A stretch of 64,000 nt of DNA from an uncultured Roseovarius sp. (GTDB lineage: Bacteria; Pseudomonadota; Alphaproteobacteria; Rhodobacterales; Rhodobacteraceae), in NCBI RefSeq assembly GCF_947489715.1, contig NZ_CANLER010000002.1, forward strand, positions 391,597 through 455,596. Reading direction: 5' to 3'. The notes under the pieces are model-generated. The model did no database searches. It saw nothing but the letters and a program-made list of their open reading frames with translations, and had not been told where the DNA came from. The translations under genes and the position numbers were made by a program. This document shows, piece by piece, positions 4,417-27,295 of this stretch (position 1 is its first letter; the number at the start of each line of letters is the position of its first letter).

Positions 4417-4443
4417 CACTTCCTTCCTGTCAGCCAGTTCCGG

Positions 4444-7085: not shown

Positions 7086-8267
7086 TCAGATTGCAGGGCG
7101 TTCGGGGATGCTGCGGTCTACACCGCGCACAATGTTCTTTTCTTGGTCAAAGAACGGTGGCTGGACGATGTCGCCACTGTGCAGGCTGCCGTCCGGCAGG
7201 CGCATAGAAAGGGTGCGACCGACCCAATCGCCGGGTGCATTGAAATGCACATAGCCCACCCCAACGCCCAGAGTGGGTGACGGAATGCCGGCGGTGATCC
7301 GGCCGACCACGGTGTCACCCTCCATAACCACGCTGCCCGCAGCAGGGGTTTGAGTGGCGCATGTCAGACCAAACAGGCAGGACCGCGTATCCTTGCCCAC
7401 CAGGGCATCGCGCCCGACGAAATCGCCCTTTTCCATATTGATAAAAGGGGCCAGTCCCGCCTCGTACGGTGTCATGTCCGGCGTCATGTCTGTCAGGTTG
7501 CCAAGGATGCCCCCTTCGATCCGGCGGATAGTCAGCGCACGGGTCGATGAGAATTCCATGCCATGTGGTTCCCCACAGGCCATCAAATGATCCCAGAGTG
7601 CCAGGTGATCGGTTTTGGCCCCGTCAGAGTAGACTTCGAATCCAAGCTCATTGGTGAACCCGGTGCGCGAGACATAAAGGGTCTGACCACCCAGATCAAA
7701 ATAACCCGAACGGAAATACTTCAGGGTCTCGTCAATCGCCCCTCCGGACGCCGCTTTCATGATCTCAATCGACGTCGGCCCCTGAATTTGCAGCACTCGG
7801 CTGTGCGGGTCGGAAATGCTCACGTCAAAGCCTCCGGAATGCGCCATCAGCCATGCCTCGAACGGGCCATCGGCCTGAACGTACCAGAACCGATTTTCGC
7901 CGAGTTTGAACATGACACCGTCCATGAAAACACCGCCCTGAGGCGTGCAGGCGATGGCATAGTATCCGCGCCCTTCAGCCATGGTGGCGACCTTGCGGGC
8001 AAGTACTTTTTCAAGGAAGGGCACAGCGTCCGGCCCCGAGATTTCAATGGGCTTTTCGGGCACGTCAAAGATCAGCGCCTTCTGGCGCAGGCACCAGTAT
8101 TTTTCGAGATAGTCTTCGCCGGTGAAGATCGGGAAGTAGCGCCCGGCATAGACGCCGCGGATCATTTCCGGGCAATCGGTGCGTTCGATAAAGGGGGATT
8201 CCTCAAAGCGGCGGGCGCTGATGGAAACGTTGTTTTGCAGGTCGGAGGCTTCCTGGAGGTTGCTCAT
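7086..8267 (-). CDS. GcvT-family (DmdA-like) folate-dependent demethylase/aminomethyltransferase
   Basis: A 393-residue protein of the GcvT/YgfZ/DmdA superfamily: folate-binding N-terminal domain, with blocks VFMDGVMFKLG, HSRVLQIQGPTS, SRTGFTNELGFEVY and RRIEGGILGN, and a C-terminal GcvT barrel ending GYVHFNAPGDWVGR. Relatives move a methyl or methylene from an N- or S-methyl donor to tetrahydrofolate. The IxDD stretch of classical GcvT reads FMDG here, so it is not an ordinary glycine-cleavage T protein. Its ATG overlaps the stop of the molybdoenzyme gene (ATGA). A second copy lies at 18924-20093. Demethylation of a betaine-, sarcosine- or DMSP-like compound is the best guess. Confidence 0.8.
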   Translation of the reverse strand: MSNLQEASDLQNNVSISARRFEESPFIERTDCPEMIRGVYAGRYFPIFTGEDYLEKYWCLRQKALIFDVPEKPIEISGPDAVPFLEKVLARKVATMAEGRGYYAIACTPQGGVFMDGVMFKLGENRFWYVQADGPFEAWLMAHSGGFDVSISDPHSRVLQIQGPTSIEIMKAASGGAIDETLKYFRSGYFDLGGQTLYVSRTGFTNELGFEVYSDGAKTDHLALWDHLMACGEPHGMEFSSTRALTIRRIEGGILGNLTDMTPDMTPYEAGLAPFINMEKGDFVGRDALVGKDTRSCLFGLTCATQTPAAGSVVMEGDTVVGRITAGIPSPTLGVGVGYVHFNAPGDWVGRTLSMRLPDGSLHSGDIVQPPFFDQEKNIVRGVDRSIPERPAI

Positions 8268-12669: not shown

Positions 12670-13746
12670 CTATGCCTCCTCGGGTGCCGGAATACAGCCA
12701 GCGGCCAGTGCCGCCGTAAGACCGCGCGCCGTTGCAACACCAAGGACAGAGCCGTCTTCCCCTTCTACGACAACACCGCTGTTATTAGCGGCCAGTCTGG
12801 GCAGCAGTGTTTCCACCAACGTCCCCCTAGCGACACGTTTCAGCTCGGCGGTTTCTGAGGCCGTATCATCAAGTATATCTTCGGCGCGCAAAATACGTTC
12901 CCACGGGACGTCCTGTGTGAACTCGCGGACGTAACCGTCAGCTGGGTTCAGGATCAGGTCAATCGGGCGCCCGATCTGCACCACCGCCCCGTCGCGCATG
13001 ATCGCCATGCGGTCGGCGATGCGCAGGGCTTCTTGGAAATCGTGGGTAATAAAAACAATGGATTTATGCAGCTTTTCCTGAATGCGAAGGAATTCGTCCT
13101 GCATCTGTTTGCGGATCAGCGGGTCAAGCGCTGAAAAGGGTTCGTCCAGGAACCAGACATCCGGCTCAACCGCCAACGAACGTGCGATGCCCACGCGCTG
13201 TTGCTGGCCGCCGCTCAGCTCTTTGGGGAAGTTGTTTTCACGGCCTTCCAATCCGACCAGTTCGATCACACGTTCGGCCTGTGCATAGCGCTCAGTCTCG
13301 GTGACCCCCTGCAGTTTCAGCGGAAAGGCAATGTTATCGATGACATTGAGATGCGGCATCAGACCAAAGCTTTGGAACACCATGCCCATCTTGTGACGAC
13401 GAATGTCGATCAGCTCGGCATCGGATTTCTTCAGCAGGTCTTCGCCATCCAGCAAAATTTCCCCTGCCGTTGGTTCAACCAGCCGGGAAAGACAGCGCAC
13501 GATGGTTGATTTGCCGGATCCAGAAAGCCCCATGATTACAAAAATTTCACCGGCGTGAACGTCAAAACTGACATCTGCATTTGCGACGATATGGTCCGCA
13601 TCGCGAATGGCATCTGAATGTTGGACGGCGTCAGTTACACGCCCCTGCGTACCCTCGAAGAACTGTTCGGGTTGCCTGCCATAGACCTTCCAGACGTTCC
13701 GGCATGACAGTTTTATGTCACTATGGTCATTGGTCGGGGTCTTCAT
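12670..13746 (-). CDS. Glycine-betaine/proline-type ABC transporter ATPase
   Basis: A 358-residue ProV/OpuAA-type ATPase. The Walker A is GLSGSGKST, the signature LSGGQQQRV, the Walker B WFLDEPFSALD, and the H-loop histidine is in VFITHDFQEAL. The N-terminal extension (KLSCRNVWKVYG) is typical of ProV. The C-terminal 70 residues look like a single CBS-type segment (NNSGVVVEGEDGSVLGVATARG), shorter than in osmoregulated ProV. It sits between the binding-protein and fused-permease genes. Confidence 0.92.
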   Translation of the reverse strand: MKTPTNDHSDIKLSCRNVWKVYGRQPEQFFEGTQGRVTDAVQHSDAIRDADHIVANADVSFDVHAGEIFVIMGLSGSGKSTIVRCLSRLVEPTAGEILLDGEDLLKKSDAELIDIRRHKMGMVFQSFGLMPHLNVIDNIAFPLKLQGVTETERYAQAERVIELVGLEGRENNFPKELSGGQQQRVGIARSLAVEPDVWFLDEPFSALDPLIRKQMQDEFLRIQEKLHKSIVFITHDFQEALRIADRMAIMRDGAVVQIGRPIDLILNPADGYVREFTQDVPWERILRAEDILDDTASETAELKRVARGTLVETLLPRLAANNSGVVVEGEDGSVLGVATARGLTAALAAGCIPAPEEA

Positions 13747-13912: not shown

Positions 13913-14863
13913 TTACTGCATTGCCTCGTCGATCCAACCCTGCCACTTGGCCTCGTTTTCGGCCAGCCATTCAGCAACGACCTCGTCGAGATCGCGGCCC
14001 TGATTGTCCACGGCCAGGATTGCGGCATTTTGTTCTTCATTGGTCTGAGAATAGAGCGACAGCATTTTGTAAGCGGCGGGCCACTTCTCCTCGAAACCAC
14101 CCCAGACGACCTTTTCGACGCTAGCCTGTTCAAACCCGCAGGCAGTCTCGCGATCCTGATTTTCTTCGATGCAGGCCTCGTCTGTCGGGTTCCACTCAAC
14201 CCAGTTGAGATCCAGGTCGGCGAAAATCCAATGGGGCTGCCAGATCATCATCAGGATCGGGTCACCCGCAGCATAGGCTGATTGCAGTTCGGCCATCATC
14301 GCGCCTTCGCTGCCACCCGCGACCGGATTGAATGGCAATTCGATCCCGGCCACAACATCGCGTGACCGCGTACCCCAGTCAGCCGGGTAAGTGATCAGAC
14401 GGCCGTTCGGGAATGTTTCAGCCGAGGCAAAGGCCTGGGCGCAATCATAAAGCGCCTGATAGCTTGGCAGGCCAGGACATTTTTCTTCCATGTAAGGCGG
14501 ATAGATCCAGCCTTCACGCGGTTCCAGCCCCAGATCGCCCAGCACAACGATATCCCCTGCCTCAACAGCCTTGGGGTACAGATCACCAATATTGTTGGTC
14601 CAGACCTCTGCCTGGAAATGCAGATTGCCCTGCGCCAGCCCCGCATGCTGTGGCAGCGCGCCCGCACTGACATATTCAATGTTGTAACCCATCTTCTTGA
14701 GCAACTCGCCAGCAATTTTTGTCGATACATGCTGGCCGGTCCAGTCATTCATAATGACCTTGATGACGTCATCGTTTTCCGGAACGTCAGCCGCAATGGC
14801 CGCGCCTCCGGATACAAGCAGAGCGAGGGCAGCGCCTCGCGCGGCGTTCAGAATACTTTCCAT
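13913..14863 (-). CDS. Glycine-betaine-type ABC transporter substrate-binding protein
   Basis: A 316-residue periplasmic OpuAC/ProX-like protein. The signal peptide is about residues 1-24, with cleavage near AIAADVPEN. The mature part contains tryptophans fitting the aromatic onium cage of this family: NDWTGQH, AEVWTNN, GWIYPPY, and IWQPHWIF. It is the first gene of the ten-gene minus-strand unit and its promoter region holds copy 1 of the 21-bp operator. Binding of a quaternary ammonium or sulfonium zwitterion is expected from the family; which one is unknown. Confidence 0.88.
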   Translation of the reverse strand: MESILNAARGAALALLVSGGAAIAADVPENDDVIKVIMNDWTGQHVSTKIAGELLKKMGYNIEYVSAGALPQHAGLAQGNLHFQAEVWTNNIGDLYPKAVEAGDIVVLGDLGLEPREGWIYPPYMEEKCPGLPSYQALYDCAQAFASAETFPNGRLITYPADWGTRSRDVVAGIELPFNPVAGGSEGAMMAELQSAYAAGDPILMMIWQPHWIFADLDLNWVEWNPTDEACIEENQDRETACGFEQASVEKVVWGGFEEKWPAAYKMLSLYSQTNEEQNAAILAVDNQGRDLDEVVAEWLAENEAKWQGWIDEAMQ

Positions 14864-14938: not shown

Positions 14939-14969
14939 AAACTTACCATTAGAAAGTTTTTCGTGTCAA
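14939..14969 (-). promoter_or_regulatory. Promoter with operator copy 1 (proX operon / betI-like gene)
   Basis: The palindrome spans 14939-14959 with left arm AAACTTACC, centre ATT and right arm AGAAAGTTT (two mismatches to the consensus GGTAAGTTT). On the minus strand a perfect TTGACA (-35) lies at 14964-14969, 4 nt from the operator, so the operator covers the -35 to -10 spacer of the proX promoter. The BetI-like gene starts on the other side. Repression by occlusion is inferred. Confidence 0.7.
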
Positions 14970-15042
14970 TGGTTGAATCTTTTGGGTTTTGCCGCCACAA
15001 TCAGATGTGAGATGCAGTTTAGTTTAATGAGGTTTTCATCAG

Positions 15043-15726
15043 ATGCGATCCAGTTCCATTCGAGCGATCAGACGCGCCGAGCTATCACGCGCAGCCTTTG
15101 AGGCAGTGATTCGATATGGATTACGCAAGACAACACTGGACAAGGTGGGCGACATTGCAGGTGTGTCGAAAGGCGTTGTTCTGCACCATTTCAAAGACAA
15201 AAGCGCGTTGCTTGAGGCGGTGTTTCGCAGATCAAACTCGTTGCTCAGCGAATCCGTCGTCGAGCTTTATCGCTATGCAGAAACCCCTTACGAGCGGCTC
15301 TGGGCAATTATTGTTGCCAATTTCTTTGAAACGATCTTCAATCGCAGGGTCTGTCAGGCATGGGTCTCTCTGATCTCGGAAGTGCCGCATAACCAGGAAT
15401 GCCAACGCGTCCAGATCGCCAATAACGAACGCATCAGAAGCAACCTGATGCACGAACTGAAACATTTCTTGCCAGAAGATGAAGTCGCACAGGTAGCGCG
15501 CCACTTGGGTGTTCATATCGATGGCATTTGGGTGCGCGCCGGCCTGTTGCCCGACCCTATCGAAACCAGTGCAGCCGTCTCCGAGATGGAATATGCCGTT
15601 TCAAAACTGCTGCCCTTTGACGAAATCAGCGCCGCAAAACACAAAGAAGCCCGCAAGAAGATCGAAACGATTGCGCAAATTGCGCTGGGCTCCAAGGCGT
15701 TCCAAGAAAAATCCTTGCGGGTCTAA
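15043..15726 (+). CDS. BetI-like TetR-family regulator
   Basis: A 227-residue TetR-family protein. The helix-turn-helix is about residues 28-47 (DKVGDIAGVSKGVVLHHFKDK), and the ligand domain has the BetI-like HIDGIWVRAGL block. Spacing and several motifs follow E. coli BetI, the choline-responsive repressor, but it is longer at the C-terminus. It is divergent from proX with operator copy 1 between, and it ends convergently with the EamA gene (stops overlap by 3-4 nt). It is the best candidate for binding the 21-bp palindrome found in three nearby intergenic regions. The inducer is presumably the onium compound or a metabolite. Confidence 0.85.
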   Translation: MRSSSIRAIRRAELSRAAFEAVIRYGLRKTTLDKVGDIAGVSKGVVLHHFKDKSALLEAVFRRSNSLLSESVVELYRYAETPYERLWAIIVANFFETIFNRRVCQAWVSLISEVPHNQECQRVQIANNERIRSNLMHELKHFLPEDEVAQVARHLGVHIDGIWVRAGLLPDPIETSAAVSEMEYAVSKLLPFDEISAAKHKEARKKIETIAQIALGSKAFQEKSLRV

Positions 15727-16628
15727 CGGGCTGTCAAATGCGCCTTGCGCGCGGAACGCAGTGACAAAAGCGGGTCCAGCATGCTCGCCCCTGTGATCAG
15801 GATTACGCCAGTCAACTCGCGCATGCCAAATGGCTCTCCGGCCAACAGGGCCACGGAAACTGCCCCGACAACGACTTCGGTCATGAACAAAAGGCCGACC
15901 AGGCCAGGACTGAGGAATTTCGGCCCCCAAAGGGACGCATAGGTTCCGGGCAAGATCAGCAGGACCATGAAAACCAGCAGCGTCGGCAACGCGGGCAGGG
16001 TCTGGGCGACACTTGGGACATGGTGAGAGGCCAGCAAGACCGCGGCACCAACCGAAAACACCAATGACCACTGAAAGAACCCAACTGTCAAATCGATGGC
16101 CGAATGATCGCTTTTCATGCGAATGCGTACCGCCGCGACTGCCCACAGGATGCCGGCGCACACTCCGAGCCAGTCGCCGATATTTTGTGGAACCGGGAAC
16201 CGCACACCCAGTCCGAATATGGTCAACATGCCGGCAATCGCCAGTGCCATGGCGATGATGCGGGTCGGTGTAATCTCATCGCCCAAAACAACTCGCGCCA
16301 GGATCGTCGCCCAAACCGGTGTGAGGTAAAACAGCAATATAGCGCGCACAACCTCGGTGTAGACGATGGAGGTTGAATACAGCAGCAATGCCCCACCCGA
16401 GAGTATTGCCGTTATCTGCAATTGAACCCCACCCTGACGAACATGCTGCCATCGCCACAGGGTGACAGGTAAAAGGCATATCGTCGGGACAAGAAAATAG
16501 ACAACCGTGATCCACAGCCCATGCAAGCCGGCGTCTTCGAGTATCCTGAGAGGGATCCAGAACAATCCCCAAACCGCCCCGGCATAAAGACAGGCAAGTT
16601 TGGCTTTGAATTCAACAGGCGCGCTCAC
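15723..16628 (-). CDS. EamA/DMT-family membrane transporter
   Basis: A 301-residue integral membrane protein with about ten hydrophobic helices in two EamA halves; the first half includes YTEVVRAILLFYLTPVWATILARVVLGDEIT, the second the repeated FMTEVVVGAVSVALLAGEPF. The family exports amino acids and other metabolites by drug/metabolite exchange. It is divergent from the GMC oxidoreductase gene, and on its strand operator copy 2 follows a TTGACA, the same layout as the proX promoter. A role in exporting a pathway product or an excess amino compound is a guess. Confidence 0.85.
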   Translation of the reverse strand: MSAPVEFKAKLACLYAGAVWGLFWIPLRILEDAGLHGLWITVVYFLVPTICLLPVTLWRWQHVRQGGVQLQITAILSGGALLLYSTSIVYTEVVRAILLFYLTPVWATILARVVLGDEITPTRIIAMALAIAGMLTIFGLGVRFPVPQNIGDWLGVCAGILWAVAAVRIRMKSDHSAIDLTVGFFQWSLVFSVGAAVLLASHHVPSVAQTLPALPTLLVFMVLLILPGTYASLWGPKFLSPGLVGLLFMTEVVVGAVSVALLAGEPFGMRELTGVILITGASMLDPLLSLRSARKAHLTAR

Positions 16629-16704
16629 GGAGCGGCCCCTGCCGTTGCAGGGCGGGCGTTAAAAAATAGCTGCACAGGAAACCTTCAGCGGACGGTGATT
16701 TCTC

Positions 16705-16755
16705 TAACTAACCATTGGTAAGTTTATTGTCAAAAGGTAAGTTATTCTTTATAAA
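16705..16755 (+). promoter_or_regulatory. Promoter with operator copy 2 (GMC operon / EamA gene)
   Basis: The palindrome is at 16705-16725 (TAACTAACC, ATT, GGTAAGTTT). A plus-strand sigma70 promoter follows: TTGTCA at 16727-16732, a 17-nt spacer, and TATAAA at 16750-16755. The half-site GGTAAGTT recurs inside the spacer at 16736-16743. On the minus strand TTGACA (16728-16733) stands 2 nt from the operator and points at the EamA gene. Confidence 0.75.
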
Positions 16756-16840
16756 AGGTAGTCAGGGGATGCGCAAAGCAACCGTTCATGGACCACAGGA
16801 TTCGCTGCTGGGTTCGTCACCACGCCAAGGGAAGACCGAC

Positions 16841-18496
16841 ATGGAATTTGATTACATCATTGTGGGCGCGGGATCAGCGGGCTGTGTCCTCGCCAATCGC
16901 CTGACCAGTGATGCAAAAAACCGGATTTTATTGCTAGAAGCAGGCCCGGACAATACCGCGCTTTCCCTGAAAATGCCCGCCGCCGTCTTGTCGAACCTGA
17001 ACAGCACCAAACACAATTGGGCCTTTCAGGGCGAACCCGAGCCAGAGTTGAACGGACGCCGTATTCAGCATGACCGAGGCAAGGCCATAGGCGGATCTTC
17101 GTCGATCAACGGAATGGTTTTCATCCGCGGACACGCATTGGATTACGAAGGCTGGCGTCAGGCTGGCTGCAAGGGCTGGGGCTATGCCGATGTACTGCCC
17201 TACTTTAAGCGCATGGAAACCTATGGCGGTGGCGCAGATGCATATCGGGGGGGCACAGGCCCGCTCTACGTGCACCGTGCTGATCCCCAAGACCCGCTAA
17301 CACTGGCGTTTCTCAAAGCCGGGCAAGAGGCTGGATACCCCGCCACCGACGATGTCAGCGGTTTTCGCCAAGAAGGCTTCGGCGTCTCCGACCGCACCGT
17401 TTTCAAAGGCGAGCGGTGGAGCACAGCGCGCGCCTATCTTGACCCCGTGCGAAAGCGATCGAACCTGACAATCAAGACGCAGGCGCAGGTTCAAAACCTG
17501 ATCTTTGACGGGACCAAGGCCGTGGGGGTCGCTTATACCGACAACACCGGGACTGCGCAGACCGTGCATGTGCGAAAAGAAATCATCCTCAGCGCAGGCG
17601 CAGTTGGGTCACCCCATATCTTGATGCTGTCTGGGGTTGGCCCAGCTGAGCATCTTCAGGATATGGGCGTTGACGTGCTACACGACCTGCCCGGCGTGGG
17701 GCAGAATCTGAATGACCACCCCGATTTCGTGCTGAAGTATAAATGCAAGCAACCCGTTTCTTTTTGGCCCAAGACAAAGCCGCTGGCCAAGCTTGCGGCT
17801 GGGATTCAATGGATCACGACACGCAGTGGCATCGTGGCATCCAATCTGTTTGAAGGGTTGGGCTGCATCCGGTCCGGGCCGGGTGTGGAATATCCCGATT
17901 TGCAGATCATTATTTCACCAATCGCGGTTGATGACGCAACTTGGGAACCGCTTCAGGAACACGCCTTTCAAATCCATGTTGGCCTGATGCGCGCACACAG
18001 CCGGGGCAAAATCGAACTGCGCTCGTCTGATCCCAGTGATCCTCCGAGCATCTTGGTGAATTATCTGAAGGACGCTCGGGACCGCGAGTTGATGCGCAAA
18101 GGCATCCGGTTGGTCCGAGACCTTGTTGATCAACCTGCGTTTTCTAACCTCAGAGGGGATGAGATTTTTCCGGGCCACGATGCCCAATCGGACGAAGATC
18201 TTGATCAGGCTCTGAATGCGCACGCAACGACACAATGGCACCTGTCCTGCACGGCCCGGATGGGTGCCGCGACCGACAAGGGCGCTGTAGTTGATGCCAG
18301 TGGACGGGTGCACGGTCTGTCTGGACTGCGGGTGGTCGATGCGTCGATCATGCCGTTTGTCACCAACGGCAACACCAATGCCCCCACCATCATGCTGGCC
18401 GAAAAACTGAGCGATGACATACTGGGCCGCGCGCCGTTGCCCCGGATAGAAACTGACGTCTGGCGCAACACGGAATATGCAACCTGCCAGCGATGA
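16841..18496 (+). CDS. GMC-family FAD oxidoreductase (choline/alcohol dehydrogenase-like)
   Basis: A 551-residue GMC flavoprotein. The FAD dinucleotide motif is IIVGAGSAGCVLANRL at residues 5-20, the GMC signature 1 is GKAIGGSSSINGMVFIRG, and the C-terminal catalytic block is QWHLSCTARMG, with TNGNTNAPTIMLAE near the end. BetA (choline) and DddA (3-hydroxypropionate) dehydrogenases belong to this family. The ATG at 16841 has AAGGGAAG 6 nt upstream and starts right at the FAD motif; a 42-codon in-frame extension upstream is rejected because it would run into the promoter. First gene of an operon with VOC and GcvT-like genes. Confidence 0.88.
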   Translation: MEFDYIIVGAGSAGCVLANRLTSDAKNRILLLEAGPDNTALSLKMPAAVLSNLNSTKHNWAFQGEPEPELNGRRIQHDRGKAIGGSSSINGMVFIRGHALDYEGWRQAGCKGWGYADVLPYFKRMETYGGGADAYRGGTGPLYVHRADPQDPLTLAFLKAGQEAGYPATDDVSGFRQEGFGVSDRTVFKGERWSTARAYLDPVRKRSNLTIKTQAQVQNLIFDGTKAVGVAYTDNTGTAQTVHVRKEIILSAGAVGSPHILMLSGVGPAEHLQDMGVDVLHDLPGVGQNLNDHPDFVLKYKCKQPVSFWPKTKPLAKLAAGIQWITTRSGIVASNLFEGLGCIRSGPGVEYPDLQIIISPIAVDDATWEPLQEHAFQIHVGLMRAHSRGKIELRSSDPSDPPSILVNYLKDARDRELMRKGIRLVRDLVDQPAFSNLRGDEIFPGHDAQSDEDLDQALNAHATTQWHLSCTARMGAATDKGAVVDASGRVHGLSGLRVVDASIMPFVTNGNTNAPTIMLAEKLSDDILGRAPLPRIETDVWRNTEYATCQR

Positions 18497-18526
18497 CTGG
18501 CTTTCATCCCACAATGGAGTGACCTT

Positions 18527-18916
18527 ATGATCGGTTATGTAATGGTAGGAACCAATGATCTGGACCGAGCTGCTGCGTTTTACGATTCTATCCTTGCCCC
18601 GTTGGGTTTGATGCAAGTCGAACGCGTGGAAACCTTCTCCGCCTACGCCCCCGTGGCCGCGAAAGACGCAATTGAATTCTACGTCACCACGCCATTCGAT
18701 CAGCGCCCAGCGACGCCCGGTAACGGTATGATGATCGCGCTTGCCGCCCCGTCCATTCAGGCCCTTGAACAATTTCACACAGTTGGTTTGCAAAACGGTG
18801 GTACCGATGAAGGCGCCCCCGGCCCGCGCGAAGAAGACAGCGACATATGCTACGCCTATGTCCGCGATCCGGACGGCAACAAGATCTGTGCCTTTTGCTT
18901 GGATCCGCAGGATTAG
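18527..18916 (+). CDS. VOC-family (glyoxalase-like) protein
   Basis: A 129-residue single-domain vicinal-oxygen-chelate protein: beta-alpha-beta-beta-beta units with MIGYVMVGTNDLDRAAAFYDSIL at the start and YVRDPDGNKICAF at the end. Family members bind a divalent metal and act as lyases, isomerases or dioxygenases, or as binding proteins. GGAGTGACC precedes the ATG. It lies between the GMC and GcvT-like genes with short gaps (30 and 7 nt), so it shares their transcript. Specific function unknown. Confidence 0.8.
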   Translation: MIGYVMVGTNDLDRAAAFYDSILAPLGLMQVERVETFSAYAPVAAKDAIEFYVTTPFDQRPATPGNGMMIALAAPSIQALEQFHTVGLQNGGTDEGAPGPREEDSDICYAYVRDPDGNKICAFCLDPQD

Positions 18917-18923
18917 GCAACCG

Positions 18924-20093
18924 ATGAACGACCTTCCCGCCCTCGACCCAGCCCGCATTTTCCCGACCTATGTCGGCAGCAACGAACTGTCGCCCTTTTA
19001 TCCCTGCTATGCCAACGACCAGACCGTGTTGCGGCTGGCGGCTGGCCGCTTCTTTGCCCATTACAACGGCGATGATCCGGTTGCGGGCTACTGGGCCTTA
19101 CGCAAACACGCGGCCCTTTATGACGTGCCCGAACGCCCGGTCGCGATTTCTGGGCCCGATGCCGTGCTTTTCCTTGAACGCATCCTTGCGCGCCGCATCG
19201 CCAATATGAAACTGGACAGAGGGCGTTATGCCGTTGCCTGCACGCATCAAGGCGGGGTGTTCATGGATGGCATCCTGTTCCGACTGGCCGAGGACCGGTT
19301 CTGGTTCGTGCATCCCGATGGCGATCTGGACACGTGGCTTTTGGCCCATAACGACGGCTTCGATGTCACCGTCAGCGATCCGCATTCCCGCGTGTTGCAG
19401 ATCCAGGGACCAAAGTCCTATCAGATCATGCAGGGCGCGTCGTCGGGCGCCATTACAGAAGACCTTAAGTATTTCCACGCCGGCTTTTTCGATCTGGGCG
19501 GTCAGCAGGTCTATGTCTCGCGCACCGGCTGGACCGGCGAGTTGGGCTATGAAATCTACACGCTTGGAGAAGCGACGGATTGCCCCCGGCTGTGGGATCA
19601 TCTGATAGCACATGGCGCGCCCCACGGCATGGTCTTCAGTTCCATGCAATCCATGAACACCCGCCGTATCGAGGCCGGCATTCTGGACAGCGGTAGCGAT
19701 TTTGACAGTACCATGAACCCGTTCGAGGCGGGGCTGGAGCGGTTTGTCGATCTGGACAAGGAGGGCTTCATTGGTCGCGACGCAGTGCAGGCCGCCTCCC
19801 CCGGCACCCGGCTCTATGGTCTGCGCTGCGATGGTGTCATCCCAAGTGGCGGCGATGTGATACTGGACGGCAACGCGGCTGTCGGAAAGGTCACGACCGG
19901 CGCGCAGTCACCTTATCTGGGCTGCGGGATCGGATATGTCAGGTTTGATGAGCCCGGCGATTGGCACGGACGACAATTGACCCTGCGACCCGCCCGGTAC
20001 GGTGAGGCCAGCTGCGACATCGTGGAGCTGCCGTTTTACGATCCGGACAAACGCTTGCCGCGTGGATTGCCCCTGGAAGAGCCCCCCGGCTAG
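18924..20093 (+). CDS. Second GcvT-family (DmdA-like) folate-dependent demethylase
   Basis: A 389-residue paralogue of the protein at 7086-8267. They share long blocks, including QGGVFMDG, HSRVLQIQGP, the SRTG...ELG motif, RRIE.GIL, and GYVRFDEPGDWHGR, but differ in the N-terminal 45 residues and in several loop segments. The ATG at 18924 (MNDLPALDPARIF) starts the family-like N-terminus 7 nt after the VOC stop. It probably transfers a methyl from a methylated N or S substrate to tetrahydrofolate. Two copies in one regulon suggest two successive demethylations or two related substrates. It converges on the amidohydrolase gene, with 18 nt between stops. Confidence 0.8.
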   Translation: MNDLPALDPARIFPTYVGSNELSPFYPCYANDQTVLRLAAGRFFAHYNGDDPVAGYWALRKHAALYDVPERPVAISGPDAVLFLERILARRIANMKLDRGRYAVACTHQGGVFMDGILFRLAEDRFWFVHPDGDLDTWLLAHNDGFDVTVSDPHSRVLQIQGPKSYQIMQGASSGAITEDLKYFHAGFFDLGGQQVYVSRTGWTGELGYEIYTLGEATDCPRLWDHLIAHGAPHGMVFSSMQSMNTRRIEAGILDSGSDFDSTMNPFEAGLERFVDLDKEGFIGRDAVQAASPGTRLYGLRCDGVIPSGGDVILDGNAAVGKVTTGAQSPYLGCGIGYVRFDEPGDWHGRQLTLRPARYGEASCDIVELPFYDPDKRLPRGLPLEEPPG

Positions 20094-20111
20094 ACGTCAG
20101 CCACCTGCACA

Positions 20112-21737
20112 TCACTCGGAGCGATAGACACATGTTCCCCGGCGAATGGTCCGGGCGACGCGCGTCTGGCTCAGCAGCTCGGGCCGTGCCACCGGATTGT
20201 GCGTCAGAATGGCAAAGTCAGCCAGTTTGCCGGGCTCGATAGACCCGCGCTCGCCTTCCTGAAATACCTGCCAGGCAGCTGTGATTGTCTGGGCCTTGAA
20301 CGTCGAAAGCACCGAAATCCGCTCATCTTCGCCCAGCACCCGCCCCGTTGCCGTGCGCCGGTTCACCGCGCAATGGGCCAGATGCAGGGGCCGCGTGGGC
20401 GTGACCGAGGCATCATTGTGGATTGTAAAGGGAACCCCCATTTTCTCTGCTGATGCCGCCGGAGAGATGCGCTCTGCGCGTGATGGCCCCAGAAAGGTAT
20501 CGAAATGGCGGTCCCCCCAAAAATGGATATGCGCCGAAAAGAAGCTAATCGTGACGCCCATGTTGGCCATTCTGTGCAGTTGATCGTCTCGCAGGACCTG
20601 CCCATGGATCACGGTATGACGGTGGTCATCCCGAGGATTCGTTGCCAATGCGTCGGATATCGCATCCAGAAACATATCTGTTCCAGCGTCTCCATTGCAG
20701 TGACAATGGATCTGTAACCCCATGCCATGCAACTTCGTGACGTTCTCGGCGAACTCTTCTTCGTCGCAATAGGGCATGCCAGACGGCGCCGTTGGGTTCG
20801 AGGGACGGTGGTAGGGCGTTGTCAGATAAGCGGTCTGCAATTGAAACGCCCCATCGGTGAACAGCTTGCGCGGACCCAGTGAAAAGTAAGGTGTGTCAGG
20901 CCAGTCCAGATCAATCTTTCCCTGCGACAGGCCGGGTTCCAGCGCCGCTTCGGGTAAAAGAACGAGATCAATACCCGGGTCATGACCCTCGGGCAGCCCG
21001 GCGAAGTGTTCCAGAAGACGTTTGGAGGCCCATGCATTCTGGGCAAAGGTCACGCCCTGTGCCAGATAGTTATCGCGACAAGCATCGAACCCCTGCCAGA
21101 ACCGTGCGCCATCAATCAGAAAGTCTGTCGCGCCCAGATCGCCCATCGCCGAGATACCTTCGATCAGGCCTGTCAGCGCGCCGGTCTGGGGATCGCGCCC
21201 AAAGCGCCCTCCAACCGGATCGGGCGTGTCCGCAGTCAGGCCTTGTGTTTCCAGCGCCAGTGAGTTGGCAACGCCGTTATGTCCCGACGCGTGGATCACC
21301 CAAATCGGATGATCGGTTGAAACTCTGTTAAGCTCGGCCAGCGTAGGCATGCGGTTTTCTGCGATTGCAGTATTGTCGAACAAAACCCCCATAACCCACT
21401 CGCCCCCGGGTGTTTGCGCGGCTTTTGTAGAGAGACGATCAAGCGCCTCGGCCATTGTGGAACAGTCCCCTCTTGGTGGTGCTGCCAGGTCCACCCGAAA
21501 CAGCGCGATAAACCCGGGATCAGGGAAATGCCCATGCGGGTCGATGAATGCGGGGATCAGACATCGCCCCCGCAGATCGACCTCTTCTACAATCCGGTCC
21601 GGCCCGGCACGCAACTCGGCCTCGTCGCCGATCGCCAAGATTCGGTCACCACCGGTCAAGACCGCCTGCACCTTAGGCTGGTCGTCGTCCATCGTCAGAA
21701 TGTCACCGTTAAAGTAAAGGGTAGTGGATCGAGACAT
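20112..21737 (-). CDS. YtcJ-like amidohydrolase family protein
   Basis: A 541-residue metal-dependent hydrolase of the amidohydrolase superfamily, YtcJ/AepA-like. It has the N-terminal cap strand (LYFNGDILTMDDDQPKVQAV), the metal-binding IDPHGHFPD (HxH), QIHCHCNGDAGTDMF, TVIHGQVL, the lysine region GPRKLFTDGAFQ, and a terminal block GSIEPGKLADFAIL. It hydrolyses an amide or formyl-type C-N bond. It lies 79 nt downstream of the binding-protein gene, but a strong terminator sits in that gap, so its expression should be lower. Substrate unknown. Confidence 0.85.
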   Translation of the reverse strand: MSRSTTLYFNGDILTMDDDQPKVQAVLTGGDRILAIGDEAELRAGPDRIVEEVDLRGRCLIPAFIDPHGHFPDPGFIALFRVDLAAPPRGDCSTMAEALDRLSTKAAQTPGGEWVMGVLFDNTAIAENRMPTLAELNRVSTDHPIWVIHASGHNGVANSLALETQGLTADTPDPVGGRFGRDPQTGALTGLIEGISAMGDLGATDFLIDGARFWQGFDACRDNYLAQGVTFAQNAWASKRLLEHFAGLPEGHDPGIDLVLLPEAALEPGLSQGKIDLDWPDTPYFSLGPRKLFTDGAFQLQTAYLTTPYHRPSNPTAPSGMPYCDEEEFAENVTKLHGMGLQIHCHCNGDAGTDMFLDAISDALATNPRDDHRHTVIHGQVLRDDQLHRMANMGVTISFFSAHIHFWGDRHFDTFLGPSRAERISPAASAEKMGVPFTIHNDASVTPTRPLHLAHCAVNRRTATGRVLGEDERISVLSTFKAQTITAAWQVFQEGERGSIEPGKLADFAILTHNPVARPELLSQTRVARTIRRGTCVYRSE

Positions 21738-21764
21738 GGGTCAGGGGTGCTCCGGGCCGGAAAC

Positions 21765-21797
21765 AAAAAATTCCGCGCCAAGGAATGGCGCGGAATT
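21765..21797 (-). terminator. Intrinsic terminator/attenuator between binding protein and amidohydrolase
   Basis: A perfect 10-bp inverted repeat (TTCCGCGCCA 21771-21780, loop AGGAA, TGGCGCGGAA 21786-21795). On the minus strand it is followed by a run of T (plus-strand A at 21765-21770). It lies right after the binding-protein stop at 21817 and before the amidohydrolase start. Confidence 0.85.
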
Positions 21798-21816
21798 AAG
21801 TTTTACAAGTCTAATA

Positions 21817-23412
21817 TCAGACCATCCACCAACGTTCCATGATCCGCCGGCCATCAAAACCGCGCACCCAAGACACATCGCCATGGGCGATCTTGTCGTT
21901 GCGGGCATGAACCGAGTTGCCGAACATCGGGATGATGCTGCCACCGTCATCACGCAGCAGTTCTTGCATCTCGCGATACATCTCGCCTCGCAATTCTTCG
22001 TTCAGCTCGGCCCGGGCCGATTTCAACAATTCATTGAACCGCGGGTTATCCCATTGCGACTCGTTCCACGCCGCGCCCGGTGCAAAGGCTGTGGACAGCA
22101 TCGCGTCCTCGGTCGTGTACCCACCCCAATAGCTGGCGCTCCAGGGCTTTTTCATCCACACATCGGACCAATAGCCATCGTTGGGTTCACGCACGACATT
22201 GATGTTGATCCCTGCCTTTTTGGCCGAGGCCTGGAACAGCACGGCCGCATCCAGCGCCCCACCAAAGGCGGCATCCGACGCGCTTAGGTCGACAGTGATG
22301 TCACCTAGCCCGGACTTCTGCCAGTGATGTTTGGCCTTGTCGGGATCATAGCTGTTCTGTTCGATATCGCCCGCGTGGTAACGATACGACGGTCCGATCG
22401 GGTGGTCATTGCCGACAACACCGTGACCGAACAGAATCTTATCGACAATCTCCTGCCGGTCGATGGCGAACTTCAAAGCCTTGCGCAGATCGGGATTGTC
22501 GAACGGTGCGATCTCACTCATCATCGGGAAAGTATAGTGCAGTGGGCCAGCGCCTTCTTCGATGATCACGTCAGAGCGTTTTTCAAGCATGGATAGCGTT
22601 TTCAACTCCACGCTGCCGATGCAATCGACCTCGCCGGTAATCAGCGCATTCGTCCGTGCCGATGAATCCACGATCGACATCAGGTCGATCGTGTCTGCAT
22701 GCGCGGCCCCTTCCTTCCAGTAGTTTGGGTTCCGCTCGAACTGATAGATCTGCCCGGGTTGTTCATTCTTCAGAATGTATGGGCCCGAACCACCACCGGT
22801 CCAATCGATCCCGCCATCCTTCGATGGGTAGATGGTGAACAATGCCTCGTTGAAGTTGTACGGGAAGTCCGCGTTGCCCTCGGACATCGTAATGACCAGC
22901 GTATCAGAGCCATCGGCCTTGATCTCGGTGACAGTCTCCAAAAGCGGTTTGCCGACCGATGTAGTATCTTCACCTCGGTGATAGTTGAGCGATGCGATCA
23001 CATCGTCGATGGTCATCGTCTTGCCGTTGTGAAATTCCACATCCGTGCGCAGTTTGAACGTCCAGACCGTCGCATCAGGTGATGACGACCATTCCGTGGC
23101 CAGCGACGGCACCAGATTGCCAGAGGCATCCACCTCGGTCAGGGTGTTGGCGACGCCGTAAACGGCCGTCCACTGGATGCCGTTGGTGATCGTTGCCGGA
23201 TCAAGCGTGTCGGAGGTCGAGCCGTGCGCCATGGCCAATCGCATATGGCCACCTCTCTTGGGGGTCGAAGCATGCGCCTTGCTGAAAAGGCTCGAACTTG
23301 CACTCAACGCCATCCCAAGAGCTGCGGTTCGACCCATGAATTCGCGCCGCGACATGCGGCCCTTTTCGATCTGGCCAACCAGCCATTGCGCGTGTTTGTC
23401 GCGATCGTTCAT
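21817..23412 (-). CDS. ABC transporter substrate-binding protein, family 5 (peptide type)
   Basis: A 531-residue periplasmic binding protein of the DppA/OppA class. The Tat-type leader is residues 9-50 (SRREFMGRTAALG..., ending KAHA). Family blocks include TWTFKLRTDVEFHNGKTMTIDDVIASLNY and LRKALKFAIDRQEIVDKILFG. No permease or ATPase genes are next to it, so it either borrows a transporter encoded elsewhere or serves as a scavenging receptor. It is the first gene after operator copy 3 on the minus strand, ahead of the terminator and the amidohydrolase. Confidence 0.88.
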   Translation of the reverse strand: MNDRDKHAQWLVGQIEKGRMSRREFMGRTAALGMALSASSSLFSKAHASTPKRGGHMRLAMAHGSTSDTLDPATITNGIQWTAVYGVANTLTEVDASGNLVPSLATEWSSSPDATVWTFKLRTDVEFHNGKTMTIDDVIASLNYHRGEDTTSVGKPLLETVTEIKADGSDTLVITMSEGNADFPYNFNEALFTIYPSKDGGIDWTGGGSGPYILKNEQPGQIYQFERNPNYWKEGAAHADTIDLMSIVDSSARTNALITGEVDCIGSVELKTLSMLEKRSDVIIEEGAGPLHYTFPMMSEIAPFDNPDLRKALKFAIDRQEIVDKILFGHGVVGNDHPIGPSYRYHAGDIEQNSYDPDKAKHHWQKSGLGDITVDLSASDAAFGGALDAAVLFQASAKKAGININVVREPNDGYWSDVWMKKPWSASYWGGYTTEDAMLSTAFAPGAAWNESQWDNPRFNELLKSARAELNEELRGEMYREMQELLRDDGGSIIPMFGNSVHARNDKIAHGDVSWVRGFDGRRIMERWWMV

Positions 23413-23487
23413 TTTTTACTTCCTCCCATGTTGTGACGCGCGTTTGCAGTTCACGCGCGGCAGGGGACAAGCAGCCCCATTGCCAAA

Positions 23488-23518
23488 AAACCTACCATTG
23501 GTCAGTTTTGTAAGTCAA
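23488..23518 (-). promoter_or_regulatory. Promoter with operator copy 3 (binding protein / esterase-mcd-matB)
   Basis: The palindrome is at 23488-23508: AAACCTACC, ATT, GGTCAGTTT. On the minus strand TTGACT at 23513-23518 is 4 nt from the operator, the same geometry as copy 1. The region is the 190-bp gap between the divergent binding-protein and esterase genes, so both directions may be controlled. Confidence 0.75.
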
Positions 23519-23602
23519 TGTTAATTTTATAGACGATAAGTTCGTTTTTACTGGTTTCGGCGACAACCAACAATTAGATTGCGCTCAAAGAAGGAGCAGC
23601 AA

Positions 23603-24511
23603 TTGACAGTGCCAGGGCATCTCAGCACGGAAGCTCGGCGTATTCTGAGCGAAGAACAGAATGCGCCGTCCAATCGCTCGGCAGAAAACCTGCCGGCGTT
23701 GCGAGCAAAGACAAAATCTTTCATCGCACCCGCCGTCGAGCGGATTTTGGAAGCTAACAGTGTGATGACAAAAGGCATCATCATCAACGGCGTGCCTTGC
23801 TTGGAAGTGAGACCACCTGAGCTCACGGCGCCTTGGCCCATTCTTTACGGTTTCGGCGGTGGATTCGTTCAGGGCAGCCCATTTGAGGATTTGACAATCG
23901 CCGCACCACTCTGTGCGATGACAGGCGCAAAGTTGGTTATACCAAACTATCGTCTGGCGCCGGAGCACCCTTGGCCAACTGCAATCGACGACGGTTTTGC
24001 CGTTTACCAGGCACTTTGCAAAAAACCATTCGCGATTGTCGGGGAATCTGCGGGTGGCAACCTTGCCCTCGCACTGATGCTGCGCGCCCAAAAGGCGGGC
24101 CTGCCTTTGCCCGGTGCAGTTGCGCTAATTTCTCCATGGTGCGATCTTGACACTTCCAGCGATAGCCAGGCGTTCAATGATGGGCGGGATCCGTCCCTTA
24201 CCACGCAATGCTCCGAGGCCGCGGCAAGGCATTATGCCGGGGATAACGATATCACAAACCCGGACATTTCCCCGATCTACGGAGACTATAACTGCAGTTT
24301 TCCGCCATGCCTCATCACGACAGGCACGCGCGATCTGTTGCTTAGCCTGTCAGTTCGACTGGCAACGGTCCTTCGAGAGAGTGGCATCAATGTAGATTTG
24401 CAGGTCTGGGAAGGCCTGTGGCATGCCTTTGAATGGGATGACCGCATTCCAGAGTCAAATAAGTCCCTAAGTAACATCGCAACATTTCTGGCAAGGCATT
24501 TTATTCAATGA
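23603..24511 (+). CDS. Alpha/beta hydrolase (acetyl-esterase/HSL family)
   Basis: A 302-residue esterase-type hydrolase. The nucleophile elbow is GESAGG (about residue 151), the oxyanion-hole segment YGFGGGFVQG stands in for the usual HGGGF, and the terminal histidine is in GLWHAFEW. A TTG start at 23603 is chosen because AAGGAG lies 6 nt upstream; another TTG at 23579 has no ribosome site. Its stop overlaps the malonyl-CoA decarboxylase start (ATGA). It may release an acid or alcohol that feeds the malonate genes behind it; not demonstrated. Confidence 0.82.
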   Translation: MTVPGHLSTEARRILSEEQNAPSNRSAENLPALRAKTKSFIAPAVERILEANSVMTKGIIINGVPCLEVRPPELTAPWPILYGFGGGFVQGSPFEDLTIAAPLCAMTGAKLVIPNYRLAPEHPWPTAIDDGFAVYQALCKKPFAIVGESAGGNLALALMLRAQKAGLPLPGAVALISPWCDLDTSSDSQAFNDGRDPSLTTQCSEAAARHYAGDNDITNPDISPIYGDYNCSFPPCLITTGTRDLLLSLSVRLATVLRESGINVDLQVWEGLWHAFEWDDRIPESNKSLSNIATFLARHFIQ

Positions 24512-25773
24512 CTCTGACTGATCTTCTCTCAACGGTGTTCGAACGGCGATATCGCCGTAAGATACATGGGGCAATTGATGGCCGTCCCATTGCCGAATTG
24601 GCAGATGCATTGGTCGGATCCACTGGGGAAGTCTCTGGTCTGGCGCTTGCAGAGGAAATCTTGTTGCGGTTCGAGGCGATGGACGACGACACGAAGCTCG
24701 GGTTTTTTCGCTACCTTGCCACTGCAATGAACATTGATCCGGAAACCGTTCGGGCCACCCTGCACGAATATGAAGAAGGCCCATCAAAAGCATCCTACCG
24801 CGCCTTTGCTGCAGCGGCGGAACCAGCCCGACAGGAAATGGTTCGACGCTTGAATCGAGTTCCAGGTGCCACGGGTGCGCTGGTACGTATGCGTGCCGAT
24901 CTCCTCCGGCTCGGGCGGGGAGAGCCTGACCTTGAGGCATTGGATCTGGATTTCCGGCATCTATTTGCCAGTTGGTTCAATCGCGGTTTTCTGGTGTTGC
25001 GCCCGATTAACTGGGAAAGTCCGGCGCATATTTTGGAGAAGATTATTGCCTATGAGGCGGTGCATGCCATCGATAGCTGGGATGATCTGCGTCGCAGGCT
25101 GGAACCAACAGACCGGCGTTGTTTCGCCTTCTTTCATCCCGCGATGCCCGACGAACCGCTGATCTTTGTAGAGGTTGCTCTGACCAAGGGCATTCCGGTA
25201 TCAGTACAGACCCTGTTGGCGCAGGATCGTGAGGCCATGCCCGAAGAGGAGGCTGATACGGCGGTTTTTTATTCGATCTCCAACTGCCAGCCCGGGTTGG
25301 CCAGCATTTCGTTCGGGAATTCACTGATCAAGCAAGTGGCATCGGATCTGGCGTCGGAACTCCCGGAGCTCACGACGTTCGTCACTTTGTCCCCCATCCC
25401 CGGCCTGACCAGATGGCTGGAGAAGGAAAACAACGAATGGGACGACGATCAACCGCAACGGATGAAGGCGCTGGCCGCCCATTATCTGCTTAATGCCAAG
25501 GGACAGGACGGCCTTCCGTTCGACCCAGTCGCGCGCTTTCACCTTGGAAATGGGGCGTTTGTCCATGCGGTGCATGCGGATGCTGACACTTCGGATAAAG
25601 GCCGAACGCAGTCTGGTGGAACCATGGTGAATTATCTCTATGACCTATCCAAGGTTTCTCGGAACCACGAAAATTTTGTGACAACCAAAGAGGTAGTGGC
25701 AACCGCGGAAGTAAAAACTCTTGCCGGTACCGCCACTTACTCACAGACGCAGGGAAGAATTTCCAATGGTTAA
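24508..25773 (+). CDS. Malonyl-CoA decarboxylase
   Basis: A 421-residue malonyl-CoA decarboxylase (MatA/MCD): N-terminal helical domain (EVSGLALAEEILLRFEAM...) and a C-terminal GNAT-like catalytic domain with CFAFFHPAMPDEPLIFVEVAL, FYSISNCQPGLASISFGN, the LSPIPGLTRWL block and the VARFHLGNGA...YLYDL end. It converts malonyl-CoA to acetyl-CoA and CO2. It overlaps both neighbours, 4 nt with the esterase and 8 nt with matB, so the three form one translationally coupled operon. Length is normal for bacterial MCD. Confidence 0.93.
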   Translation: MTLTDLLSTVFERRYRRKIHGAIDGRPIAELADALVGSTGEVSGLALAEEILLRFEAMDDDTKLGFFRYLATAMNIDPETVRATLHEYEEGPSKASYRAFAAAAEPARQEMVRRLNRVPGATGALVRMRADLLRLGRGEPDLEALDLDFRHLFASWFNRGFLVLRPINWESPAHILEKIIAYEAVHAIDSWDDLRRRLEPTDRRCFAFFHPAMPDEPLIFVEVALTKGIPVSVQTLLAQDREAMPEEEADTAVFYSISNCQPGLASISFGNSLIKQVASDLASELPELTTFVTLSPIPGLTRWLEKENNEWDDDQPQRMKALAAHYLLNAKGQDGLPFDPVARFHLGNGAFVHAVHADADTSDKGRTQSGGTMVNYLYDLSKVSRNHENFVTTKEVVATAEVKTLAGTATYSQTQGRISNG

Positions 25774-27295
25774 CCCTCTTTATGATGGCCTATTCGGACG
25801 ACACGCAGGGAAGACGACGCCATTCCTGCATCTTCTGGACGAGTCAATCATCACGCATCAGGACTTTCTCGGCCGCGCCGCCCAGATAGCCAATGTGATG
25901 CAACAACTTGGCTTGAAACCCGGTGATCGTGTCGCCGCTCAGATCCAAAAGTCACCGGAAGCCCTGGCACTGTATGCGGCCTGCGTACAAGCGGGTCTCG
26001 TATTCCTGCCACTGAATACCGCCTATACAGTCAATGAACTCACCTACTTCATCGAAAATAGCGGCGCCTCTCTGATTGTCTGTGACGGCCGGAATAAAGC
26101 GCAGCTTGCACCAGTGGTAAGCAAGCTGTGCGCAAAGGTTGAAACCCTGAATGCGGACGGAAGCGGCTCGCTTAAAGCCAAGGCGCAAGAGATGCCCACC
26201 ACGTTTGCAACGGTTGACCGCTCCGAAAACGACATTGCCGCATTTCTCTATACATCAGGAACCACAGGGCGATCGAAAGGTGCTATGCTGACGCAGCAAA
26301 ATCTTCTATCGAACGCGCTGGCGCTGGTTGAGGCTTGGAAGTTTACCGCAGACGACGTCTTGCTTCACGCCCTTCCAATCTTCCATACTCACGGTCTGTT
26401 CGTGGCAACCAACGTCACTCTGGTAGCCGGTGGCAGCATCATCTTTATGCCGAAATTTGATCTCGATGTGATGGTCGAACGTATGCCCGAGGCGACAACC
26501 CTGATGGGTGTTCCAACATTTTACACGCGCTTGCTGGAAGACGAGCGTTTCAACCTGGCATCGACCGCGCATATGCGGCTGTTCGTGTCTGGTTCCGCGC
26601 CACTGCTGGCGGAAACTCACGTTCAGTTTGAAGAACGTACGGGGCACCGCATCCTCGAACGATACGGTATGACCGAAACCAACATGAACACCTCCAACCC
26701 CTATGACGGGCATCGACGTGCAGGAACGGTGGGCCTGCCGTTGCCAGGGGTCGAGGTCAGAATCTGTGATGCCGATGGCAATGAATTGCCTCAAGGCGAC
26801 ATTGGCGAGATCGAAGTGCGCGGCCCAAATGTCTTCAAAGGTTACTGGCAGATGCCTGAGAAAACCGCCGCCGAACTACGCGAGACAGGGTTTTTCATCA
26901 CCGGTGATCTGGGGCAAATTGACGAAGATGGCTATCTCCATATTGTTGGGCGCAACAAAGATCTGATCATTTCCGGTGGATACAATATCTACCCCAATGA
27001 AATCGAGCTGGTGCTGGATGATCAACCCGGCGTTCTGGAAAGCGCGGTTGTTGGTGTGCCCCATCCCGATTTTGGCGAAACCGTCATTGGCGTGGTGATC
27101 GCCGAGCCGAGCCAATCACCTGATCTTGACGCAATGATGGATGCCGTACGTGTATCACTTGCCCGCTTTAAACATCCGCGCAAACTAATCCTGCTGGATG
27201 AATTACCGCGGAATACGATGGGTAAAGTTCAGAAGAACATTCTGCGAGATCATTATAAAGTCATGTTCGCGCCCGCCTGCCCCGAGATTCGCTGA
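25766..27295 (+). CDS. matB: Malonyl-CoA synthetase (malonate-CoA ligase)
   Basis: A 509-residue ANL-superfamily acyl-CoA synthetase. The AMP-binding P-loop is LYTSGTTGRSKGAM (about 152-165), the A5 motif ERYGMTETNMNTSNPYDGHRRAGTVG, the hinge GRNKDLIISGGYNIYPNEIE and the catalytic lysine is in PRNTMGKVQK. The arginine-rich DGHRRAGTVG stretch is typical of MatB, and the malonyl-CoA decarboxylase next door fixes the assignment. The ATG at 25766 has AGGGAAG upstream. It activates free malonate, so the operon takes malonate to acetyl-CoA. Confidence 0.9.
   Translation: MVNPLYDGLFGRHAGKTTPFLHLLDESIITHQDFLGRAAQIANVMQQLGLKPGDRVAAQIQKSPEALALYAACVQAGLVFLPLNTAYTVNELTYFIENSGASLIVCDGRNKAQLAPVVSKLCAKVETLNADGSGSLKAKAQEMPTTFATVDRSENDIAAFLYTSGTTGRSKGAMLTQQNLLSNALALVEAWKFTADDVLLHALPIFHTHGLFVATNVTLVAGGSIIFMPKFDLDVMVERMPEATTLMGVPTFYTRLLEDERFNLASTAHMRLFVSGSAPLLAETHVQFEERTGHRILERYGMTETNMNTSNPYDGHRRAGTVGLPLPGVEVRICDADGNELPQGDIGEIEVRGPNVFKGYWQMPEKTAAELRETGFFITGDLGQIDEDGYLHIVGRNKDLIISGGYNIYPNEIELVLDDQPGVLESAVVGVPHPDFGETVIGVVIAEPSQSPDLDAMMDAVRVSLARFKHPRKLILLDELPRNTMGKVQKNILRDHYKVMFAPACPEIR

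Follow-up and report, generated by a model that had tools for sequence, protein, structure and literature searches.

The closest published system to the one described here is BetI2 (SPO1086) of Ruegeria pomeroyi DSS-3, which represses the divergent genes for choline uptake and choline dehydrogenase (betTA). Unlike the betI box, ATTGACG*CGTCAAT, its boxes are two overlapping palindromes with the common flank AAACTTGAAC, and with choline the protein moves between the two, its own gene being repressed and its targets induced (PMC12442346). Also in Roseobacters, the ProX-family ATP-binding cassette (ABC) systems DmpXWV and TmoXWV import methylated onium compounds or trimethylamine N-oxide (TMAO) (PMC10030565). 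The DNA analysed here, a stretch of 64,000 nucleotides from an uncultured Roseovarius sp. (the window below), holds a TetR-family gene at 15043..15726 on the plus strand and three copies of a 21-bp palindrome, each between two divergent genes. We hold it probable, at about 0.88, that the TetR protein is an autoregulated repressor which acts on the three promoter regions by occlusion and is released by a small cationic ligand. Going by the published passages on BetI2, the two systems have in common a BetI-like TetR protein in a Roseobacter, divergent targets and the outer operator arm AAACTT. A description of the present regulon was not found in the literature searched, and a letter search of the literature with the operator's 13-17-letter cores gave none of them among the matches listed.

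The three palindromes, which are the predicted operators, are all found in large gaps between genes. Operator 1 (AAACTTACCATTAGAAAGTTT, 14939..14959) lies between the ProX gene on the minus strand and the TetR gene on the plus strand, operator 2 (TAACTAACCATTGGTAAGTTT, 16705..16725) between the EamA (minus) and GMC (plus) genes, and operator 3 (AAACCTACCATTGGTCAGTTT, 23488..23508) between a family-5 binding-protein gene (minus) and an esterase gene (plus). Every copy agrees with the joint consensus, AAACTTACC-ATT-GGTAAGTTT, at 19/21 positions, and all three are imperfect, with 16/21 positions identical to their own reverse complement. With a matrix built from sites upstream of TetR genes, where a score of at least 20 counts as a strong site, they score 34.6, 29.1 and 28.2. 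The initial annotation had reported the copies at these positions; the arms that it gave, AAAC(T/C)TACC and GGT(A/C)AGTTT, describe a real palindrome but are composites, copy 1 reading AGAAAGTTT on its right side and copy 2 TAACTAACC on its left. The best other match to the consensus in the window is 15/21. Allowing up to three mismatches, the genome (5.03 Mb) has the pattern in these three places only and the reversed control in none, so the genome-wide check for unrelated matches that the annotation had proposed is favourable in this genome. A looser pattern with two mismatches added two places, both inside open reading frames (ORFs) and scoring 18.1 and 13.9, and its control likewise gave two.

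The TetR protein has the helix-turn-helix domain of its family (TetR_N, PF00440, 39.6 bits against a cutoff of 24) and the BetI-type C-terminal domain (TetR_C_6, PF13977, 69.6 bits against 27). Its structure model is all-alpha, with a predicted local distance difference test score (pLDDT) of 90.2, and the listed Foldseek matches are TetR-type regulators. It falls short of the BetI equivalog model TIGR03384 (168.2 against 201.3) and passes the looser NF001978 (143.3 against 118). Judged by its sequence, the protein is a BetI paralogue and not BetI itself, because it scores below the BetI cutoff, has a different operator and recognition helix, and a canonical betI-betC-betA set is found elsewhere in the genome (G000:C5; 232.0, 902.3 and 801.5 bits, all over cutoff). 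The domain make-up, the position at a divergent promoter and the likely cationic ligand are the same as for canonical BetI, whereas the operator, AAACTTACC-N3-GGTAAGTTT, is unlike the betI box in the form in which the BetI2 paper quotes it (PMC12442346). The earlier label of the protein as BetI-like is thus right for the C-terminal domain; it does not extend to the operator, nor to the regulon, which is not the choline-to-glycine-betaine pathway.

The recognition helix separates these proteins further. The stretch SKGVVLHHF is the same in 66/67 regulators, the exception being SEGVVLHHF in L086, while canonical BetI has SSALAHHYF and a BetI2-like protein of another genome (G027) has TAASISYYF. 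The G027 protein, whose gene has betI, betC and a BCCT gene as neighbours, exceeds the BetI cutoff of 201.3 with 218.7 bits; it was picked by synteny and is presumably BetI2. The published BetI2 flank, AAACTTGAAC, and the arm AAACTTACC found here have AAACTT in common and differ in the inner half, so that the operators here do not match the BetI2 box as far as it is given in that source. The alignment for our structure model covered 30 of the 63 regulators from the orthologue loci and the window. A tree made by a quick method from 95/97 regulators, with L086 and L093 omitted as fragments, placed the protein in a clade of 54 rows (Shimodaira-Hasegawa-like approximate likelihood ratio, SH-aLRT, 99), with a sister clade of 11 rows beside betA-type genes (SH-aLRT 97). 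Some branches are very long (L010, L012, L112), and only these two shared-operator clades are relied on. The sister clade (L006-L009, L087-L091, L094, L095) is 45-50% identical to the TetR protein and has the same operator and recognition helix; in seven of its loci, of 11-21 kb, a site scoring at least 20 is found only at the divergent betA-type gene, and one genome (G072) has a second site elsewhere.

The operator is conserved together with the regulator. We collected 62 orthologue loci, with 45-96% identity to the TetR protein, in one scan of the genome collection, some of them from one genome. Matches of at least 16/21 to the consensus numbered 93, in 60/62 loci, whereas the reversed consensus gave 3 and ten letter-shuffled palindromes gave 0-12 each; the shuffled control with 12 matches, AAACCTTCA-ATT-TGAAGGTTT, is itself near the real arm. 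The matrix gave 96 sites of score >=20 in 61/63 sources when the window is included (93 sites in 60/62 loci outside it), and none of the 93 falls inside stretches matched by 18 window proteins. Twenty column-permuted symmetric matrices gave 0-2 matches each, and 29 loci (some overlapping; 131,845 bases) of other BetI-like regulators had no site of score >=20. It is these two controls that carry weight, because some of the counted sites had gone into the training of the matrix. A de novo expectation-maximisation search, to which the motif was not supplied, found the same palindrome in shifted versions in 62 upstream regions, one from the window and 61 from the loci. A site of score >=20 lies within 250 nt upstream of the TetR gene for 53/66 regulators.

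Regulator and motif also occur together across genera. In a set of 150 family members from 150 genera, the window genome included, the motif (at most 2 mismatches) was present in six genomes and an orthologue (E of 1e-40 or better) in six, with both in five; when the window genome is excluded, 4 genomes are common to 5 and 5 in 149 (p = 1.3e-6). The genome with an orthologue and no pattern match (G095) does contain a site, with a score of 27.9, and the one with a pattern match and no orthologue (G130) reaches 16.7. Motif conservation, the sites upstream of the TetR gene, their lack in foreign loci and the co-occurrence make the assignment of the regulator well supported, and the earlier proposal of one regulon under the protein at 15043-15726 gains from a motif kept down to 45% identity.

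The surroundings of the operators suggest how repression would work. On the minus strand, a -35-like TTGACA of the ProX operon (14964..14969; TGTCAA on the plus strand) lies 4 nt from operator 1, a TTGACA towards EamA (16728..16733; TGTCAA) 2 nt from operator 2, and a TTGACT towards the binding protein (23513..23518; AGTCAA) 4 nt from operator 3, as had been noted before. In the 12 nt next to the operator such a box is found at 76/96 sites, always 2-4 nt from the edge, compared with 6/568 control segments. It also switches side with the regulated gene, TTGACA preceding the operator at 6/7 sites of the malonyl-CoA decarboxylase (MCD) gene; five of these were labelled directly, and in L067 MCD was placed by alignment. 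With the box 2-4 nt outside the operator, the operator would fill the spacer and the -10 region, and a spacer of 17-18 nt would put the -10 in the far operator arm, TAAGTT. Towards GMC, on the plus strand, the sequence has a -35-like TTGTCA (16727..16732) and, after a 17-nt spacer, a -10-like TATAAA (16750..16755) that is absent from the output of a generic scan; a lenient TTGTCA-16..18-TA-type pair was seen at 18/23 GMC-upstream sites, a count made without a control. The spacer of this promoter is covered by a second operator that is degenerate but has one good arm (GGTAAGTTA, 16724..16744, score 11.8); its start is 19 bp downstream of that of operator 2. A half-site with the same offset, or one larger by 1 nt, was found again at 18/23 GMC-upstream sites, and in the window the matrix scan gave none at operators 1 and 3.

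We infer binding, repression and the promoter positions from these arrangements. A dimer of the TetR protein would bind the palindrome in the three promoter regions, just inside the -35 hexamer and over the spacer and -10, and when bound would exclude RNA polymerase. At the GMC promoter the half-operator 19 bp further would let it cover the outgoing promoter too, which fits occlusion both ways. A ligand imported by the regulon's own transporters would then free the repressor, and the uptake and catabolic genes would be turned on together. Our guess is that the ligand is a small cation, in all likelihood one of the methylated onium compounds and similar to choline.

Several observations weigh against this repressor model or narrow it. 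Thirteen of 66 regulators, including those behind a peptide-type ABC cluster, have no score-20 site in the 250 nt upstream, and autoregulation is therefore not universal. Two of the 62 loci, L054 and L060, have no score-20 site at all, the best being 17.2 and 14.7. The loci were picked by similarity of the TetR protein, with several per genome and many close kin, so the site counts are not independent, and the de novo search was run without a control. In 21 genomes that encode a regulator from either clade, the loose pattern gave 41 matches in 17 genomes as compared to 17 for the control, and four orthologue genomes had no loose match (G016, G062, G069, G070). The 41 matches are made up of 21 in clusters, one before an OpuAC-type gene (G066) and 19 elsewhere; the 20 outside clusters comprise 15 in ORFs, the one before the OpuAC-type gene, and four intergenic ones (24.1, 19.6, 18.1 and 13.6). 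Two of the 19 stray matches score at least 20: that of G065 (20.1) is inside an ORF, and that of G072 (24.1) is intergenic and is not accounted for by the regulon. No -35-like box was seen at 20/96 sites. The generic sigma-70 scan gave three matches, where 5.5 were expected, all of them away from the three operators, and because of this silence at the operators the placement of the -10 is weak.

The stray G072 copy (L138 1103-1123) has a rhomboid gene on one side and, on the other, a gene whose product matches no Pfam family; the regulator cluster is far away.

That the protein is an ordinary BetI, with choline as effector and a local regulon for choline and glycine-betaine uptake and oxidation, is unlikely in our view. 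Its C-terminal domain and the NF001978 score do speak for such a role, and so does the sister clade with the same operator, which adjoins a GMC gene that in L094 is over the betA cutoff (876 against 732.1). In the window, on the other hand, both the regulator and the GMC protein (665.9) stay below the respective cutoffs, the aldehyde dehydrogenase is below the cutoffs for betaine-aldehyde dehydrogenase (BADH), and no link to choline oxidation by betA/betB is found; the genome has its canonical set at another place, and the operator differs from the betI box as quoted (PMC12442346). Choline would also leave the S/N-oxide reductase, the demethylases and the malonate genes unaccounted for. An activating or dual role in place of plain repression was considered as well. 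BetI2 of R. pomeroyi shifts between overlapping boxes with choline (PMC12442346), and the GMC promoter has two overlapping operators too, which could allow a dual action here; the operators lie between the -35-like box and the presumed -10, however, a position that would occlude, and we find an activator or dual regulator improbable.

A different transcription factor could bind the palindrome, with the TetR gene nearby by coincidence, and the LysR regulator encoded at 1185-2111 would be a candidate. This is very improbable, since the motif and the TetR protein co-occur across genera and the site stands upstream of the TetR gene in 53/66 cases. The sites are short and imperfect, and a chance likeness of three AT-rich palindromes was considered on that account; the rarity in the genome, the conservation in the loci, the de novo recovery, the permuted-matrix controls and the co-occurrence led us to reject it, and what is left of its probability is negligible.

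The autoregulated repressor model also receives support from loci in which the genes have been rearranged. Sites no more than 300 nt from the start of a gene were counted for TetR in 48 loci, ProX in 37, GMC in 28, EamA in 18, MCD and the first GcvT-like gene (GcvT1) in 7 each, the esterase, the reductase and the iron-type alcohol dehydrogenase in 2 each, and in a single locus for the family-5 binding protein; one and the same site may be counted for two genes. In L067, L068, L071, L072, L085 and L086, a separate peptide-type ABC cluster begins with the genes for MCD, malonyl-CoA synthetase (MatB) and the binding protein and has its own site before MCD. GcvT1 is detached with its own site in several loci, those of SAR116 included, and in G066 a site of score 27.9 stands before an OpuAC-type binding-protein gene about 24 kb from the remaining sites. 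In Marivita cryptomonadis one contig carries both types of cluster, together with two TetR paralogues (L041, L086). Since the sites accompany the genes in rearranged loci, this argues that they would mark a set of genes united by function, and not a piece of DNA inherited as a whole.

Three further loci differ in content. In L078 (11757-16316), from a Beijerinckiaceae metagenome-assembled genome, the operator precedes genes for a demethylase close to DmdA (352.7 bits, cutoff 410) and for an acyl-CoA ligase and dehydrogenase, apparently a demethylation-type pathway under the same predicted repressor. An enolase-superfamily (MR_MLE) gene adjoins the regulator or the GMC gene in 11 loci (L037 11595-12818 and relatives) and is not in the window block. 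L116 (G013) has a regulator of 33% identity beside iron-type alcohol dehydrogenase and OpuAC-type genes, without the operator, and is possibly a diverged version with another site.

The genes flanking operator 1 are the TetR gene and, on the minus strand, an operon for a ProX-type onium-binding protein (13913..14863), a ProV-type ATPase (12670..13746; TIGR01186 337.3 bits, over the cutoff of 326.6), a ProW-type permease with two permease domains in a single protein (10591..12666), a TorA/BisC-like molybdopterin S/N-oxide reductase assigned by Pfam (8264..10594; TIGR00509 944.1 bits, below the cutoff of 1017.55), GcvT/DmdA-like folate-type demethylase 1 (7086..8267), an iron-type alcohol dehydrogenase (5889..7064; every model below cutoff) and an aldehyde dehydrogenase (4444..5871; BADH 432 bits against 668.6), whose ORF is open to 6009 with 5871 as the likely start. 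The operon may extend through a CitE-like HpcH/HpaI lyase (3553..4419, minus), a probable member whose family is present in 10/63 sources, a short-chain dehydrogenase (2773..3549, minus), a possible member 3 nt from the lyase gene, and a glutathione-S-transferase-like gene (2122..2760, minus), its possible end; the LysR gene lies at this far end. The best match of the window ProX in the PDB is 4xz6 (154.6 bits), which we take to be the TMAO-binding TmoX, with a weak match to 7yle (45.2 bits), presumably the structure of DmpX with dimethylsulfoniopropionate (DMSP).

Operator 2 is flanked by a gene for an EamA-type transporter (15723..16628, minus) and, on the plus strand, by those for the choline-dehydrogenase-like GMC oxidoreductase (16841..18496), a VOC/glyoxalase-fold protein (18527..18916) and GcvT/DmdA-like demethylase 2 (18924..20093, with 18924 the likely start). 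The VOC family is present in 16 loci, in 15 of which it stands between GMC and GcvT. Both GcvT-like proteins stay far below the DmdA model (NF009133, cutoff 410), with 163.2 bits for the first and 160.9 for the second, and the top solved-structure matches of the first are aminomethyltransferases and a TMAO demethylase. At operator 3, the family-5 solute-binding protein gene (21817..23412, minus) diverges from the genes for a hormone-sensitive-lipase-type esterase (23579..24511), MCD (24508..25773) and MatB (25721..27295; 806 bits against 558), all on the plus strand. An amidohydrolase gene (20112..21737, minus) follows the binding-protein gene behind a terminator-like stem of 12 pairs (21769-21797, minus strand); its membership is uncertain, and its expression may be much lower or separate. 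Because this membership and the end of the ProX operon are uncertain, the regulon has 16 to 20 genes, so that the initial figure of about 17 has the right order of size and becomes a range. Among the proteins tested from 2122-27295, no DNA-binding regulator other than the TetR protein was found, which agrees with the annotation.

Two neighbouring observations can be added. Canonical betI-betC has a divergent family-5 binding-protein gene in L114 (1363-7081, G000:C5, with betA too) and in L113, and such binding proteins may carry choline-type compounds. A gene for a trimethylamine monooxygenase (29483-30847; 831 bits against 675) adjoins the block without an operator copy; it was rejected as a regulon member, the top matrix score in 27301-64000 being 5.2.

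The kinship with BetI, the ProX-type transporter and the choline-dehydrogenase-like enzyme are our reasons for suggesting a methylated onium ligand, and the reductase and GcvT/DmdA-like genes for suggesting an oxidised or methylated form of such a compound. DMSP, dimethylsulfoxonium propionate (DMSOP), TMAO, choline, homocholine and sulfocholine were weighed as substrates, and the gene content decides among none of them. The L078 operon leans to sulfonium chemistry, for that lineage only. The regulon could serve specifically to break down a methylated onium compound that occurs in seawater in oxidised form, such as DMSOP or a homocholine- or sulfocholine-type alcohol, with import by ProXWV and the family-5 system, reduction by the molybdenum enzyme, demethylation onto folate by the two GcvT/DmdA-like enzymes, the C2-C3 part being oxidised and passing via malonate to acetyl-CoA, and the repressor as specific sensor; as a whole this scheme is quite unlikely to be right, and the malonate genes and the esterase are not accounted for.

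The regulator, the operator and the gene set travel together in dozens of further genome records, most of them marine, from alphaproteobacteria (Roseobacter-type, SAR116 and Planktomarina by record names) and some gammaproteobacteria, and they add a further operator type within the BetI-like proteins. The predicted repressor could serve in screens for the compound that induces the regulon. The sites show which genes belong together even if these are scattered, and would thereby give a handle on an uncharacterised pathway of uptake and breakdown.

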